A DNA stretch of 64,000 nt from NCBI RefSeq assembly GCF_030419005.1, contig NZ_CP106951.1, positions 1,364,001-1,428,000 on the forward strand, written 5' to 3'. Shown one piece after another: positions 27,548 through 35,078 of the stretch (the stretch's first letter is position 1; every line of letters begins with the position of its first letter). A program made the translations under genes and the position numbers. This DNA comes from Eleftheria terrae. GTDB lineage: Bacteria; Pseudomonadota; Gammaproteobacteria; Burkholderiales; Burkholderiaceae_C. A model generated the notes under the pieces. That model was not told where the DNA came from and did no database searches. It saw only the letters and a list, made by a program, of their open reading frames with translations.

Positions 27548-27553
27548 CAATCC

Positions 27554-27730
27554 GTCCGTCGCGTTCGCGGGAGTTTTATATTTCCTTGAACCGATGCTCT
27601 TTGAGCAAGGGCTTGGAACATCGTCCTGCTGGTGTGATCGTCTCGCGTCAGATGAACCCGAAGCTTGACTGACCTCGCCCACCTGAATCCCCTGGGTTCA
27701 GGAATGCGGCTCTCGGCTCGTGGCGGACAC
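27554..27730 (+). ncRNA. ssrS: 6S RNA
   Basis: The gene lies right after zapA, the standard site. Central and apical parts carry the betaproteobacterial 6S pattern, including TTGGAACATCGTCCTGCTGG and the 3' central-bubble hairpin CCTGAATCC/GGGTTCAGG. I set the ends from the closing stem: GTCCGTCGCG (27554-27563) pairs with CGTGGCGGAC (27719-27728) over 10 bp with two G-U pairs, and CGGGAG (27568-27573) pairs with CTCTCG just inside. 6S RNA mimics an open promoter and binds sigma-70 RNA polymerase in stationary phase. The ends are uncertain by a few bases. Confidence 0.88.
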
Positions 27731-27745
27731 CTTCCGATTTCTCGC

Positions 27746-30250: not shown

Positions 30251-31525
30251 TCAGCGGGTGAGCAGGTCGATGCTGCGCTCATAGCGCTCTGTCAGCCGGT
30301 CGAACAGCTCCAGCAGGTCCTCGCTGGCTGCTGCCAGTGCGAGCCGCCCGTCGGCCCTGTGGGCCTGCTGCAGCCCGCTCGAGAACGACCGCCAGCTCAG
30401 GCTCGCCGCCTCCAGCAACTGGCGGATGTCGGAGGTGGTGAGCGGGGCCGCCTGGAGCCAGGCCAGCGATTGTTCGAACTGCTGCACCGTCTCGCGCAGG
30501 CCAGCCTGAGCGGCGTCGGCCTGGGCGCCTTCGAGCAGCCGCGCCAGCAGCGCCTGCTTGGCCAGGCGCTGCGACAACATGCGCTGCCGCCCGCAGATAT
30601 TGACGATGTGCAATGAATGGAGCTGGCTGGCCGACTCGAGCACCGTCGTGAGCCGCTCGGCGCCCTTGAGCAACCGTCCGGCCAGCTCGTCGAGCGGCGC
30701 CAGGGGCGCGACCTGTGCCGGACGGCCGAGGCTCGGCTTCAACTCTGCCCACAGTCGCTGCACTTCATCCAGCAAGTCGCCGAAGGTGGCTGCGGGCAGG
30801 CTGCGCGACAGCACGTCGAGGTTGGCCTCCACCCGGCTCACCGAGGCAGCCATCAGGGCCCGCGAGCCGGCCGTGTCGACCTCGGCCGCGAGCAGCGCAT
30901 GCAACTTGACCAGGCGCTGCGACAGCATGCGCAACTGCCCCGCGCGGTTGATGGCCTCAGCGTAGCGGGCTGCATCGATGACCTGACGCGAGACCTGGCC
31001 GACGCGCCGGTTGTCACGCATCGACAAGGTGCGCAGCAGTCGGAACGCTTCTTCTTCGGAGACCTGGGTGGCCCGCATCAGGATACCCTTGGCACGGTCC
31101 ACCAGCTTGCGTTCCTCGAAGCGGTGGCTCACGTCCTCGAGCGCGGTGCGCAGCTGCTGCTCATGGCGGAAGCGGGCCTGGGCCAGGTGCAGCAAGGGGC
31201 GCACTCGCTGGGGCGCATAGCCGTCGACCACCCAGGCATGCACGCCCGCGGCCAGCGCCCGGCTCATCTTGTCCGCATCGGCATCGGCCGTGAAAACCAC
31301 CACCGGCAGCGGCGCGGTAGAGGCCAGCGCCGCAAGGGCCTCGAACATCGGCTCGTCGGGCACCGCCTCGGACCAGACCAGCAGGTCCGGTGCATGGCGC
31401 ACCGTGTCCCGCACCACATTGCGGCGGTCCACCGCACCAAGCACGTGAATGCCGACCCCGTCGAGGTCGGCCACCAGCATGGCAGCCGCGGCCGCTTCTG
31501 CACACACCACCAGCACCGACGTCAT
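30251..31525 (-). CDS. Pseudo-receiver / ANTAR regulator with two nitrate-sensor-like P-box segments
   Basis: 424 residues. Residues 1-115 form a receiver-like domain whose phospho-acceptor position is Ser52 (PDLLVWS) and which lacks the N-terminal acidic pair, so phosphorylation is unlikely. The ANTAR domain spans about 125-185 (LVDRAKGILMRATQVSEEEAF). It is followed by two PilJ/NarX-type segments: AINRAGQLRMLSQRLVK at 191-207 and NICGRQRMLSQRLAK at 309-323. These resemble the nitrate-binding P-box of NarX and NasR. ANTAR proteins bind paired hexaloop hairpins in leader RNA to prevent termination. It is divergent from narK, whose leader carries such a hairpin. Confidence 0.9.
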   Translation of the reverse strand: MTSVLVVCAEAAAAAMLVADLDGVGIHVLGAVDRRNVVRDTVRHAPDLLVWSEAVPDEPMFEALAALASTAPLPVVVFTADADADKMSRALAAGVHAWVVDGYAPQRVRPLLHLAQARFRHEQQLRTALEDVSHRFEERKLVDRAKGILMRATQVSEEEAFRLLRTLSMRDNRRVGQVSRQVIDAARYAEAINRAGQLRMLSQRLVKLHALLAAEVDTAGSRALMAASVSRVEANLDVLSRSLPAATFGDLLDEVQRLWAELKPSLGRPAQVAPLAPLDELAGRLLKGAERLTTVLESASQLHSLHIVNICGRQRMLSQRLAKQALLARLLEGAQADAAQAGLRETVQQFEQSLAWLQAAPLTTSDIRQLLEAASLSWRSFSSGLQQAHRADGRLALAAASEDLLELFDRLTERYERSIDLLTR

Positions 31526-31606
31526 TCGCCCCTCTTGCTCTCAGCCAGACCGACGGGCGTAGATGCAAAGAACACGCCATGGCGGTGCACGCAAGCGCGG
31601 AAGCTT

Positions 31607-31622
31607 TGGCATGGACGTTGCT
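31607..31622 (+). promoter_or_regulatory. Sigma-54 promoter of the nitrate transporter gene
   Basis: TGGCATGGACGTTGCT matches TGGCAC-N5-TTGCT with one change. GG (31608-31609) and GC (31620-31621) are separated by 10 bp, the exact sigma-54 spacing. The predicted start point is near 31632. A GGTGCA half-site (31584-31589) lies 18 bp upstream but no full NtrC palindrome is seen. Confidence 0.72.
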
Positions 31623-31631
31623 TTTGCATCG

Positions 31632-31698
31632 CCTCGGGTGTGACGATGCACCCAGGCCGGTCACAGCACCGCCGGCCATGCGCACAGCGCCGTGCGCA
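31632..31698 (+). promoter_or_regulatory. Candidate ANTAR antitermination leader (two hairpins)
   Basis: Hairpin 2 is a 7-bp perfect stem TGCGCAC/GTGCGCA (31679-31685 with 31692-31698) with hexaloop AGCGCC, which has the A1 and G4 required by ANTAR proteins. Hairpin 1 (31632-31656) pairs CCT and GGGTGT with GCACCC and AGG, with one bulge and hexaloop GACGAT: G4 fits, position 1 is G not A. Hairpin 1 begins at the predicted sigma-54 start. The 3' half of hairpin 2 (31691-31698) can alternatively pair with 31758-31766, so the structure could be switched. Confidence 0.6.
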
Positions 31699-31907
31699 GC
31701 CATGTGCCTCCATGTCCCCGCCGCAGGCGAGGACCCTGTTCCTGCTGGAGAGCATCATGCGCCACGCCCCCATTCACCCGGGCCGCCCCCTGCCGGCCCC
31801 CCTGCCCCGCCCTGCCGCCGGTCGGCGCTCGTCGCCCGCGCCGACCTCCCGTGCAGGCCAGGCCTGAATCCATCCCCGTCCACGTTCCATCCGTCCGGAG
31901 TCGCTTC
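31699..31907 (+). other. Rest of the narK leader: C-rich tract and GC hairpin
   Basis: This untranslated stretch contains a strongly C-rich, G-poor segment around 31761-31818 and a 9-bp perfect hairpin GGTCGGCGC/GCGCCGACC (31820-31828 with 31838-31846) with a 9-nt loop. There is no T tract after it, so it is not a classical intrinsic terminator; a Rho-dependent or pause-type site would fit. The ribosome site CGGAG is at 31896-31900. Confidence 0.5.
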
Positions 31908-33179
31908 ATGGCAGGCTACAAGAGCTTTCTTTCCTCAGGTCATTGGCCCACGCTGCTGGCCTCTTTCCTGTACTTCGATTTCTGCTTCGCCATCTGGGTG
32001 CTCAACGGCGCCATGGGGCCCTTCATCGGCGAGGCCTTCCAGCTCAGCGCAGCGCAGAAGGGCTTCATGGTGTCGGTGCCCATCCTGGCCGGCGCGCTGA
32101 TGCGCTTCCCGCTCGGCGTGCTGGCGCAGTACATCGGGCGCAAGAACGCGGCGATGGTCGAGATGAGCCTGATCGTGCTGGCACTGGCCTTCGGCTACTT
32201 CTTCGTCGACAGCTATGACTCGGTACTGGCCATGGGCGTGCTGCTGGGCATTGCCGGCGCAAGCTTCGGTGTGGCGCTGTCGCTCGGCTCGGGCTGGTTC
32301 CCGCCGCAATACAAGGGCCTGGCGATGGGCCTGGCAGGTGCGGGCAACTCCGGCACCGTGCTGGCGGTGCTGTTTGCCCCACCGCTGGCGACCCACTATG
32401 GCTGGCAGGCCGTGTACGGCATGGCGGCCTTCACGATGTTGCTGCCCATGGCCGTGATGTGGCTGGCCGCGAAGGAGCCGCCCGACCGGGAGCACCAGAC
32501 CCTGCGCGAGCACCTGTCCTGCCTGTTCGAGAAGGACGGCTGGGTCTTCAGCCTGATCTACGTGGTGACCTTCGGCGGCTTCATCGGCCTGTCCAGCTTC
32601 CTGCCGACCTACTTCTACGACCAGTTCAAGGTGACCAAGATCGAGGCTGGTCAGCTCACCATGCTGGCCACCCTGATGGGCTCCGCGGTACGGGTGGTGG
32701 GCGGCTACATCTCGGACCGCATCGGCGGCGTCAACACGCTGACGGCGGTGCTGCTGATGGTGGCCGCCTGCCTGGTGCTGTGCGGCCTGGCGGGGCAGTC
32801 GGTGGTCGTCACCACGCTGCTGTTCATGCTCTGCTTCGCGGCGCTCGGTGCCGGCAACGGGGCGCTGTTCCAGCTGGTGCCGCTGCGCTGGCCACTGAGC
32901 ACCGCAGTGGCGGGCTCGATGATCGGCGAGGTCGGCGCGCTGGGCGGCGGCCTGGTGCCCAACGCGATGGGCCTGTCCAAGCAGCATGCCGGCAGCTACC
33001 TCTGGGGCTTTGTCGTCTTCGCGGTGCTGGCGCTGCTGATGCTGCTGGTGCTGCGGGTGGCCCAGATCCGCTGGACCCGCACCTGGGCCGAGAAGGGGGG
33101 CCGCGCGCGCCCGCCGGCAGCCACAACGCCGGCCCCGCACGACTATGGCCGGGCCCGCTACACCACTCAGGCCGAGTGA
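31908..33179 (+). CDS. Nitrate/nitrite MFS transporter (NarK/NasA family)
   Basis: 423 residues from ATG 31908 with CGGAG 8 nt upstream. Twelve membrane helices are expected. Both nitrate signature regions are present: AGAGNSGTVLAVLFAPPLA in helix 5 and GAGNGALFQLVPLRWP in helix 11, and the arginine MRFPLGVLAQ in helix 2 belongs to the substrate site. It imports nitrate for assimilation. Initiation from a sigma-54 promoter and a leader controlled by the adjacent ANTAR protein are inferred. It is convergent with the kinase gene. Confidence 0.92.
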   Translation: MAGYKSFLSSGHWPTLLASFLYFDFCFAIWVLNGAMGPFIGEAFQLSAAQKGFMVSVPILAGALMRFPLGVLAQYIGRKNAAMVEMSLIVLALAFGYFFVDSYDSVLAMGVLLGIAGASFGVALSLGSGWFPPQYKGLAMGLAGAGNSGTVLAVLFAPPLATHYGWQAVYGMAAFTMLLPMAVMWLAAKEPPDREHQTLREHLSCLFEKDGWVFSLIYVVTFGGFIGLSSFLPTYFYDQFKVTKIEAGQLTMLATLMGSAVRVVGGYISDRIGGVNTLTAVLLMVAACLVLCGLAGQSVVVTTLLFMLCFAALGAGNGALFQLVPLRWPLSTAVAGSMIGEVGALGGGLVPNAMGLSKQHAGSYLWGFVVFAVLALLMLLVLRVAQIRWTRTWAEKGGRARPPAATTPAPHDYGRARYTTQAE

Positions 33180-33249: not shown

Positions 33250-34950
33250 TCAACGCGGCAGGAACAGCAGCCAGATCACCAGCAGCAGGTTGAACAGCAG
33301 CGACAGCCCCAGGCCGATCTTCCACAGCGCCGCCTCGTCGCGGGCCACCAGCGGGGTGGCCCCCGGGGCGGGCAGCGGGCGCGAGGCACCTCGTTCGAGC
33401 GCGAGCGCGAACTCCTCAGCGGTTTCGAAGCGCTGGGCCTTCTCGCGGGCGACCGCCTTCAGCACGACATGGTCCAGCCAGATCGGCACGTCGGGCCGGC
33501 TGCGCGACGGCGCGCACGGGTCGCGGCGGAAACGCCCGCTCTGGTAGGGCTCGATCTCGCCATAGGGCAGCCGACCGGTCAGCCAGCGATACAGGGTGAC
33601 ACCGAGCGCGTAGAGGTCGCTCGCGGCATCGGCCGGCTCGGCGTCCCCGTGGGGGCCGGGCCACTGCTCGGGGTTCATGTAGCTCGGCGTGCCGGCATGC
33701 AACAGGCGCTGCGCCTGCGGTTCGCGACCGGAGACGGCGGCCCCCAGGTCGAGCACGCGCCATTGCCCATCGACGCCGAGGTGCAGGTTGGCGGGCTTGA
33801 TGTCACGATGAATCACACCCTGCCGATGCAGCCCGCCCAGGGCGCGCACCACGGCCAGCGCGGCGGCCACGACCTGGTCGACGCCGAAGCGCCGGCCACT
33901 CGCCAGGCACTGCTCCAGCGTCTGGCCTTCATGCCAGTCGAACACCAGGTAGAAGGCGCTGGCGTCGCGCTGCTCGCGCAGGCGCACGAACCCGCTGCCG
34001 GCGCGACTGCCCAGCCAGGCCTCGTGCGCCAGCATCGCGCGCTCCTGCGGGTCGGCGGCGCGCGCCTCGTGCAGCGTCTTCAGGGCCACCGGCTCGCCGC
34101 GAACCGGTTCGCGCGCCCGGTAGAGGCGATGCACGCCGTCGTCGCTGACGAGCACTTCGATGACATGCCCGTCCAGGCGGTCGCCGGCCTTGAGCCGCGG
34201 CGGCACCGGCAGCTGGCGGCCCAGCAGCAGCATGTCCTCCAGCCGGGCCTCGGCCAGGTGCAGCACCCGCATCACCAGCGCGGTGGCGTTGTCGCGGCTG
34301 CCCGCGGCAACGGCTTCGCGCACGATGGCCTCGCTGGCCAGGCTGGCGTCGCCGTGCAGGGCCAGCGCCGCCAGCCGGCTGCGCTTGAGAGCGCGGTGCA
34401 CGCCGTCGCTGGTCAGCAGCAGCACGTCGTCGGCCTGCAGCCGGCCTTGCAGGTAGTCCACGCGCACCAGGTCGTCCAGGCCCAGGGCCCGCATGAGGCG
34501 GTGGCGCAGATCGGGATGGTCGAAGCTGTGGTCCTGCGTCAGCTGCACGCACTCGCCGTCGCGCAGCAGCCAGGCCCGGGTGTCGCCCACATGCGCCACC
34601 GTGTAGCCCTGTCCCTGCAGCACCACCGCCGTCAGCGTGCACATGGCAGCCGGTCCGGCACGGCGGCGGTTGTGGTCGGCCAGCCAGGCGTTGTGGGCGC
34701 CAATCAGGCGGTCGAGCGCGACGGTGGTGTCCCAGGTGTCGGGGGTGGCGTGGTAGTCGCGCACCAGGCTCAGCACGGCCGTCTGGGCCGCCTCGGCGCC
34801 ATGGCCCCCCGCCGAGACGCCGTCGGCCAGCGCAGCGATCCAGCCACGGGCGGCCTCGCCGGGCGGGGGCGCCACGGCGGCCGCGAAGTCCTCGTTGCCG
34901 GGCCGCGGGCCGCGCTCGCTGCAGTGGCCGACGTCCACTTCCAAACCCAT
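33250..34950 (-). CDS. Fused PP2C phosphatase and Ser/Thr protein kinase, membrane anchored
   Basis: 566 residues from ATG 34950, preceded by AGGGA; the frame open to 35181 is ignored. Residues 1-235 are a PP2C domain (GNEDF, LADGVSAGGHG, GDTRAW, TSDGVH, SRDNAT). Residues 265-520 are a Hanks-type kinase with VALKTL lysine, HRDIKPANL, DLGAA in place of DFG, and GTPSYMNPEQ. The glycine loop is weak. The last 22 residues form one membrane helix (GLGLSLLFNLLLVIWLLFL), so it is tail anchored with a cytosolic body. It lies between narK and nirB, the same place as PA1782 in Pseudomonas. Its substrates are unknown. Confidence 0.92.
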   Translation of the reverse strand: MGLEVDVGHCSERGPRPGNEDFAAAVAPPPGEAARGWIAALADGVSAGGHGAEAAQTAVLSLVRDYHATPDTWDTTVALDRLIGAHNAWLADHNRRRAGPAAMCTLTAVVLQGQGYTVAHVGDTRAWLLRDGECVQLTQDHSFDHPDLRHRLMRALGLDDLVRVDYLQGRLQADDVLLLTSDGVHRALKRSRLAALALHGDASLASEAIVREAVAAGSRDNATALVMRVLHLAEARLEDMLLLGRQLPVPPRLKAGDRLDGHVIEVLVSDDGVHRLYRAREPVRGEPVALKTLHEARAADPQERAMLAHEAWLGSRAGSGFVRLREQRDASAFYLVFDWHEGQTLEQCLASGRRFGVDQVVAAALAVVRALGGLHRQGVIHRDIKPANLHLGVDGQWRVLDLGAAVSGREPQAQRLLHAGTPSYMNPEQWPGPHGDAEPADAASDLYALGVTLYRWLTGRLPYGEIEPYQSGRFRRDPCAPSRSRPDVPIWLDHVVLKAVAREKAQRFETAEEFALALERGASRPLPAPGATPLVARDEAALWKIGLGLSLLFNLLLVIWLLFLPR

Positions 34951-35078
34951 CTTGTCCCTGCCTGCTGTGCAGCGCCATGCGCGCCGGCGGGCATTGTCCC
35001 CGGGAAGCTGCGCGGCGCCAAAACAGTGCGCCCGGCCGGCCCGCTTCAAGCCAAGGACGCAGCGAACGCACTGCGTAT

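Follow-up and report, generated by a model that had tools for sequence, protein, structure and literature searches.

A sigma-54-driven leader RNA with ANTAR-type hairpins, a linker helix and a probable pseudoknot beside an ANTAR-PilJ regulator gene in Eleftheria terrae

ANTAR regulators govern nitrogen use in many bacteria, and the nasF leader of Klebsiella oxytoca, a target of this kind, starts from a sigma-54 promoter. The nitrate ANTAR leaders known so far work by keeping an intrinsic terminator from forming (PMC3369931, PMC3369936, PMC7496416). In eut leaders the two hairpins are joined by linkers of 5–12 nt, and 14 nt already impairs eutP (PMC3369931), whereas actinobacterial ANTAR RNAs, for which linkers of 2–25 nt were accepted, often overlap ribosome sites (PMC8164766). 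When Ramesh et al first searched 83 genomes with eut genes, an overlapping terminator was present in about 30% of the hits in ANTAR-bearing organisms; Burkholderia is among the hits, and those without a terminator may act on translation (PMC3369931). In a study of sigma-54 regulons, 66 such promoters are predicted for members of the ANTAR group COG3707 (PMC12316311).

Here, we describe in one window of Eleftheria terrae DNA (the whole stretch of 64,000 nucleotides analysed, whose numbering is used throughout) a leader that very probably is transcribed from a sigma-54 promoter and read by a protein of pseudo-receiver-ANTAR-PilJ-PilJ architecture. The locus is like the nasF/NasR system of K. oxytoca in its pair of hexaloop hairpins, in a one-component nitrate ANTAR protein (for the window regulator a likely assignment) and in its link to nitrate assimilation. 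It differs in the regulator, as NasR consists of a NIT domain followed by ANTAR, whereas the window regulator has a pseudo-receiver, ANTAR and two PilJ domains. The nasF leader has an intrinsic terminator (PMC3369931, PMC3369936), whereas none was found at the window leader, and the accessible description of the nasF leader contains no linker helix or pseudoknot, whereas the window leader has a linker helix, S1, and a probable pseudoknot. These two elements set the leader apart within the known ANTAR leader RNAs. We found no description of this leader in the literature searched, which was largely that of open journals, and some of the related leaders may already be among the hits of Ramesh et al.

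The promoter, TGGCATGGACGTTGCT at 31607–31622 on the plus strand, matches the sigma-54 consensus TGGCAYGN4TTGCW exactly, with GG at −24, GC at −12 and the fixed spacing, which bears out the −24/−12 geometry claimed in the initial annotation. At up to one mismatch this pattern occurs four times in the 64-kb window (1.86 expected), and exact matches to TGGCAYRN4TTGCW number seven in the whole genome (7.03 Mb in 4 contigs), against four for a reversed control pattern. Pfam identifies two sigma-54 genes in the genome. From the position of the −12 element, transcription would start at about 31632–31633, and the spacing between the sigma-54 site and the first hairpin, P1, is conserved among related leaders. 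An NtrC-type palindrome, GCAC-N5–8-GTGC, is absent from 31301–31620, which counts against our main explanation. The hexamer TGCACC is found 27 times upstream of 51 leaders, against 3.4 times in shuffles; since these upstream regions overlap ANTAR coding sequence, the excess may reflect codon use, or alternatively an activator half-site. On the minus strand, TGGCGTGTTCTTTGCA (31579–31564) is one mismatch from the sigma-54 consensus and faces the ANTAR gene; we considered it as a divergent sigma-54 site for that gene and rejected it, as only some relatives have similar sites. Elsewhere in the genome, an exact sigma-54 site at C2:1717633–1717648 lies about 1.2 kb from the second sigma-54 gene (C2:1715928–1716401), on the same strand.

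The leader opens with hairpin P1 (31636–31653, plus strand), in which GGGTGT pairs with GCACCC around the loop GACGAT (31642–31647). The initial annotation had drawn this hairpin at 31632–31656; its GACGAT loop stands, and the extra pairs of the longer form overlap the left arm of S1. Hairpin P2 (31679–31698, plus strand) pairs TGCGCAC with GTGCGCA around AGCGCC (31686–31691), and here the 7-bp stem and the hexaloop with A1 and G4 were found just as annotated. The pair thus has two hexanucleotide loops with G at position 4 of each, as ANTAR targets do; A at position 1 is present in P2 only, P1 having G, and the linker of 25 nt (31654–31678), folded as a hairpin, is not the short linker (5–12 nt) of Enterococcus faecalis eut. 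In a scan of both window strands for two [AG]N[CT]GNN hexaloops on stems of at least 6 bp and 41–46 nt apart, P1/P2 was the only pair, and 100 Markov-shuffled single strands gave a mean of 0.06, six of them having one. A covariance model, R1, scores the P1/P2 leader at 89.8 bits, partly by construction because the model includes the window sequence, and the next-best place in the genome at 27.2 bits (E 0.02). We took this second match, whose overlying reading frame has no Pfam match, as chance. Rfam, suggested at the outset as a check, returned neither an ANTAR family nor another relevant one for the whole window at gathering scores, nor for 31400–32000 up to an E of 10.

How well is this arrangement kept in relatives? 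In a search of named genomes, 39 of the best 80 of 270 loci were taken to carry the full-length regulator; they come from Methylibium, Rhizobacter, Polaromonas, Hydrogenophaga, Ramlibacter, Azohydromonas, Variovorax, Aquabacterium, Mitsuaria, Xenophilus and metagenome assemblies. Leaders were examined at 61 loci, 57 of them distinct. For a first set, P1 was chosen by eye among listed candidates, all restricted beforehand to loops with a purine at position 1, a pyrimidine at position 3 and G at position 4 (for L042 it was set from P2); 51 of the 57 loci then had a sigma-54 site (at least 9 of 11 bases) 33–37 nt before the loop, 48 of these sites matching at least 10 of 11. Because the lists already required those letters, loop counts from this set were circular, and the search was therefore repeated with the promoter as anchor and the loop letters free. 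A hexaloop hairpin of at least 5 bp was present at the expected place in 52 of the 57 distinct loci (50 original picks plus L007 and L040; none for L012, L024, L039, L042 and L064), with G at loop position 4 in all 52, C at position 3 in 45, and either A (34) or G (18) at position 1. The window's G1, initially annotated as a deviation, is thus there, though not as a defect, since with 18 of 52 loops sharing it G1 is ordinary for the clade. This suggests that G can replace A at loop position 1, and that search models strict for A1 would miss such leaders.

The second hairpin is less widespread. P2 with an ANTAR-type loop could be assigned in 22 of 51 leaders, including the window's (in L004 the loop has 7 nt), and alignments A2 and A3 were built from these 22; the search with letters free finds 17 hexaloop hairpins of at least 5 bp where P2 is expected, of which 16 have G4. 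In 29 of the 51, many from Variovorax and Aquabacterium, P1 is kept and P2 is not assignable, and this group speaks against a universal two-hairpin rule and counts against our main explanation. Ten Variovorax leaders (L053, L054, L056–L058, L061, L066, L073, L094 and L103) have the P1 loop AACGAA and no ANTAR-type P2; the 3′ strand of their P1, GCACC, could instead pair with a conserved tetramer, GGTG, that lies a few nucleotides downstream. These P1-only Variovorax leaders may be a one-hairpin ANTAR target or something else. In L020, seven T directly after P1 give this hairpin the look of an intrinsic terminator, roughly 30 nt away from where transcription is inferred to start.

The 25-nt linker is, to judge from covariation and arm swaps, the hairpin S1 (31655–31677, plus strand; arms 31655–31660 and 31672–31677). 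GCAC in the S1 loop (31666–31669, plus strand) can pair with GUGC after P2 (31704–31707, plus strand), and as S1 crosses this pairing the result would be a pseudoknot with P2 inside, which we consider probable. In A3, aligned by MAFFT without structure, 97.7% of cells are paired in P1, with both-side changes in four of six pairs; the corresponding values are 94.2% and six of seven pairs for P2, 79.4% and four of five for S1, and 90.9% and four of four for the pseudoknot, variants of which include GUAC/GUAC in L043 (Ramlibacter) and L044 and UGU/ACA in L008 and L046. Together, the A3 helices reach 91.3% paired cells, against 80.8% in shuffles that ignore kinship and for a structure read from the same sequences (0 of 500 reach it), and 31–56% when slid. 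Under the same shuffles S1 alone compares with 64.6% (0 of 500), its doubly changed pairs being matched by 206 of 500, and the pseudoknot alone with 82.6% (0 of 500), for which 16 of 500 shuffles matched the number of doubly changed pairs and 350 the pair types. When arms were swapped between species, P1, P2 and S1 each gave 0 of 5,000 (the P2 offset of L033 being one base off in this test), whereas the pseudoknot, with a free helix search, was not significant (1,944 of 5,000), which counts against it. Six further leaders, from a model without the pseudoknot, keep 17 of 24 pseudoknot pairs: all four in L141 and L142, with tetramers unlike GCAC/GUGC, three in L137 and L138, two in L143 and one in L144, the last two counting against the pseudoknot. 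In A5, whose 31 distinct rows were fitted to the three hairpins P1, S1 and P2, 85.8% of pseudoknot cells are paired. The nirB leader of Dechloromonas denitrificans has a linker of 3 nt and that of Dechloromonas sp. H13 a linker hairpin, as read by eye, which suggests how S1 may have arisen.

Conservation and covariation thus support a sigma-54 promoter that feeds straight into a two-hairpin ANTAR-type leader, as initially proposed, and add to that proposal the covarying linker helix and the probable pseudoknot, as well as the ribosome-binding site and 36-codon reading frame discussed below. At the level of sequence, comparison shows the promoter, P1, S1, P2 and the association of leader and regulator, and strongly supports the pseudoknot; conservation in our view settles the reality of the two-hairpin leader, and the window leader is, on this basis, a real ANTAR leader.

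The gene divergent from the leader (30251–31525, minus strand), recognised as such from the start, is the only ANTAR gene of the genome. Pfam places ANTAR at residues 131–183 of its product, finds two PilJ stretches and nothing else, and hence no NIT domain as in NasR; the suspicion that its architecture is unlike that of NasR was well founded. An AlphaFold model (mean pLDDT 92.9; 30 sequences) contains a receiver-like domain and a long helix besides ANTAR and two helical bundles. Solved relatives by profile include Rv1626, EutV, AmiR, the ANTAR part of NasR and 6gcv, a chemotaxis-transducer domain that we take to be McpN, and the best fold match is EutV bound to RNA (6ww6). Leaders regulated by EutV in Enterococcus and Listeria share the two-hairpin hexaloop motif with the window; in contrast to the hairpin-folded 25 nt found here their linkers are short, and EutV is a phosphorylated response regulator. 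In the window protein, the phospho-aspartate column of the receiver is, by our reading, not conserved. The order of pseudo-receiver and ANTAR, seen in the model and in matches to receivers, AmiR and EutV, is that of NasT, and the NasS–NasT systems of Paracoccus, Azotobacter and Pseudomonas also share nitrate assimilation targets with the window. Their sensor, however, is a separate NasS, whereas the window sensor is fused to the C-terminus as tandem PilJ.

The PilJ domain of McpN from Pseudomonas aeruginosa, to which the profile match 6gcv points, carries a nitrate N-box, [IVL][ND]xAGxQRML[ST]Q, and PilJ domains lacking this box did not bind nitrate (PMC6381276). A near-identical box is present in each PilJ half of the window regulator, INRAGQLRMLSQ and VNICGRQRMLSQ, with one mismatch each to the McpN consensus; McpN PilJ is a periplasmic chemoreceptor domain, whereas the window has two ANTAR-fused copies with no evident export role. 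Among 30 relatives, at most one mismatch is found in 26 for the first box and in 17 for the second, and the full box in 2 and 8, respectively. By analogy with McpN, nitrate is the likely ligand of the regulator. The divergent ANTAR protein is also the likely reader of the leader, a suggestion already made in the initial annotation and strengthened by a sigma-54 site with a hexaloop hairpin at fixed distance lying beside the regulator in 52 of 57 loci. RNA binding by the regulator, nitrate induction and a sigma-54 activator are what we infer from these relations. Proteins with tandem PilJ only, matching residues ~186–419, occur in many genomes of the family (for example C2:2901747–2902445 in E. 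terrae itself), and in some the gene is less than 10 kb from the ANTAR-PilJ gene.

What would such a leader control? The gene that follows (31908–33179, plus strand; Pfam MFS_1) encodes an MFS transporter near nirB and a molybdopterin oxidoreductase gene and is, by context, a nitrate transporter. Across the 61 loci the first gene 3′ of the leader is a transporter in 45 and nirB in 11 (56 in all), and neither in 5, some of which are at contig ends. The window's nirB was considered as a second target and rejected, having no R1 match and no sigma-54 match within one mismatch. Between leader and transporter, the ribosome-binding site TGGAG and the start codon ATG (31757–31759) occupy 31746–31759 (plus strand), at a similar place in relatives, and begin a 36-codon reading frame (31757–31867, plus strand) over a C-rich, G-poor tract, possibly a leader reading frame with a Rho entry site. 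Its 111 nt contain 60 C against 31 G, an excess reached by 0.09% of window stretches. When searched for from 70 nt to the gene, a Shine–Dalgarno sequence (SD) with a start codon is present at 106–123 nt after the P1 loop in ten leaders; with the search set to 104–125 nt and six leaders added, it is present in 16 of 27, a count that drops L033 (contig end). In L035 and L037 this start codon is the transporter's own.

In the lowest-energy fold of the window leader GUGCCUCC, which follows P2, pairs with the ribosome site UGGAGAGCAU while S1 and P2 are kept; the same fold opens P1, the 5′ strand of which pairs near 31765, and this counts against our main explanation. The pseudoknot strand 31704–31707 together with 31708–31712 has an alternative pairing with 31746–31755. 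The window leader differs in this respect from the actinobacterial RNAs, in which the motif itself overlaps the ribosome site, whereas here the strand after P2 would cover it. Anti-SD letters follow P2 in 11 of 16 leaders with a ribosome site and in 1 of 11 without (Fisher 0.005), an association that was framed after looking and ignores kinship; the 5 of 16 without such letters count against it, and a swap test of the tail against the downstream sequence was not significant. A 70-nt C-rich stretch in the top 1% of its locus occurs in only 5 or 6 of 19 testable leaders, and a Rho-like tract as a general rule was therefore rejected.

On balance we favour, as a fairly likely explanation of the whole, a nitrate-gated ANTAR leader with a pseudoknot and with an output through the ribosome site and Rho. 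Under nitrogen shortage, sigma-54 polymerase would start at about 31633, and the first 75 nt of the transcript would fold into P1, S1, P2 and the pseudoknot. A dimer of the pseudo-receiver-ANTAR-PilJ-PilJ protein would bind the P1 and P2 loops once nitrate fills the PilJ boxes, with S1 and the pseudoknot standing in for the short linker that other ANTAR targets have, and setting the distance between the two loops. Binding would shift the RNA towards the pseudoknotted fold, which engages GUGC; without protein, GUGCCUCC would pair with UGGAGAGCAU, and the closed ribosome site would let Rho stop transcription ahead of the transporter gene. Rho could do so because the ribosome site serves the 36-codon reading frame over the C-rich tract; in some relatives the transporter's own start is at this position. 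Taken alone, the ribosome-site switch with Rho polarity as output is a tentative proposal, to which we give somewhat less than an even chance.

Classical antitermination as in Klebsiella nasF, in which formation of P2 would exclude a terminator that escapes recognition because it has no good U-tract, is the strongest competitor, albeit an unlikely one. NasR, AmiR and EutV are known to act in this way (PMC3369931, PMC3369936, PMC7496416), several relatives have strong hairpins 3′ of P2, and a terminator-like site was detected in 2 of the 20 leaders that resemble the window's and in 8 of the 24 belonging to the other group. The same scan found such sites in 3 of 3 Pseudomonas nirB leaders used as controls (and in 0 of 2 from Dechloromonas), but no intrinsic terminator in 31400–32000, and hence none overlapping P2, and nothing terminator-like in 18 of the 20 window-like leaders. 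The initial annotation had seen the locus as a mirror of Klebsiella nasF; the sigma-54 start into an ANTAR-type leader agrees with that, whereas Klebsiella-type antitermination is not supported, as the intrinsic terminator was not found. It is very improbable that the ANTAR protein alters only the stability or localisation of the RNA, with termination and translation uninvolved: in 52 of 57 loci a strong hairpin does lie within a few bases of where the transcript is inferred to begin and could there influence decay, but an SD start codon at similar distance and the ability of the tail to cover it would be left unexplained.

The leader RNA also occurs in other settings. The regulator has some match in 126 of 150 genomes of the family, E. 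terrae being one of the 150, and in 22 of them a match spans ANTAR and both PilJ domains. R1 matches 26 of the 150 at E ≤ 0.01, 15 of them below 1e-7, and a PilJ-type regulator is present in 10 of these 15. One of the ten, G056, has the RNA before nirB, far from the PilJ-type gene, and a NasT-like gene as well. Among the remaining five of the 15, the sole ANTAR gene of G097 and of G109 encodes a NIT-ANTAR protein, and G091, G103 and G129, the last from the window's genus, have a NasT-like protein, by which we mean an ANTAR domain plus likeness to residues 45–187 of the window regulator. The NasT-like gene of G103 and G129 adjoins a gene for an NMT1_2-family protein, and an additional, weaker match to ANTAR is present in G091 and G103. 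The leaders L137, L138 and L141–L144 all precede a nirB gene of 81–86% identity and have, by eye, a sigma-54-like site at the expected place. In a search beyond the family set, R1 gave a match in only two among 369 genomes from the class, and these two belong to the window's own family. As the R1 RNA occurs with PilJ-type, NIT-ANTAR or NasT-like regulators, the leader RNA appears to have been retained through changes of nitrate sensor, which suggests that sensors have been exchanged over one conserved RNA. Whether these leaders form a pseudoknotted subclass of ANTAR RNAs, in which the pseudoknot strand also acts as lid on the ribosome site, a nitrate-loaded ANTAR protein opens this site to translation and shuts out Rho rather than blocking an intrinsic terminator, and sensors of the PilJ, NIT and NasT-like kinds are exchanged, is slightly more doubtful still than the ribosome-site output by itself. 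The occurrence of the RNA next to the ANTAR gene, as well as in genomes that have a different ANTAR protein for nitrate, base pairs that covary with pairing kept and a G at loop position 4 that is constant with letters free make it most improbable that the hairpins are DNA or promoter features with the transporter under sigma-54 alone, for which the lack of an assigned P2 in 29 of 51 leaders could be cited.

As the leader is compact and conserved, has no recognisable terminator and combines a ribosome site with a covarying pseudoknot, these alternatives are directly testable. Two further features of the window may be mentioned. A gene for a fused PP2C phosphatase-protein kinase (33250–35028, minus strand) lies between the transporter gene and nirB, and is found near nitrate genes in many relatives too. 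Rfam also identifies an ordinary 6S RNA at 27550–27733 on the plus strand (52.2 bits).
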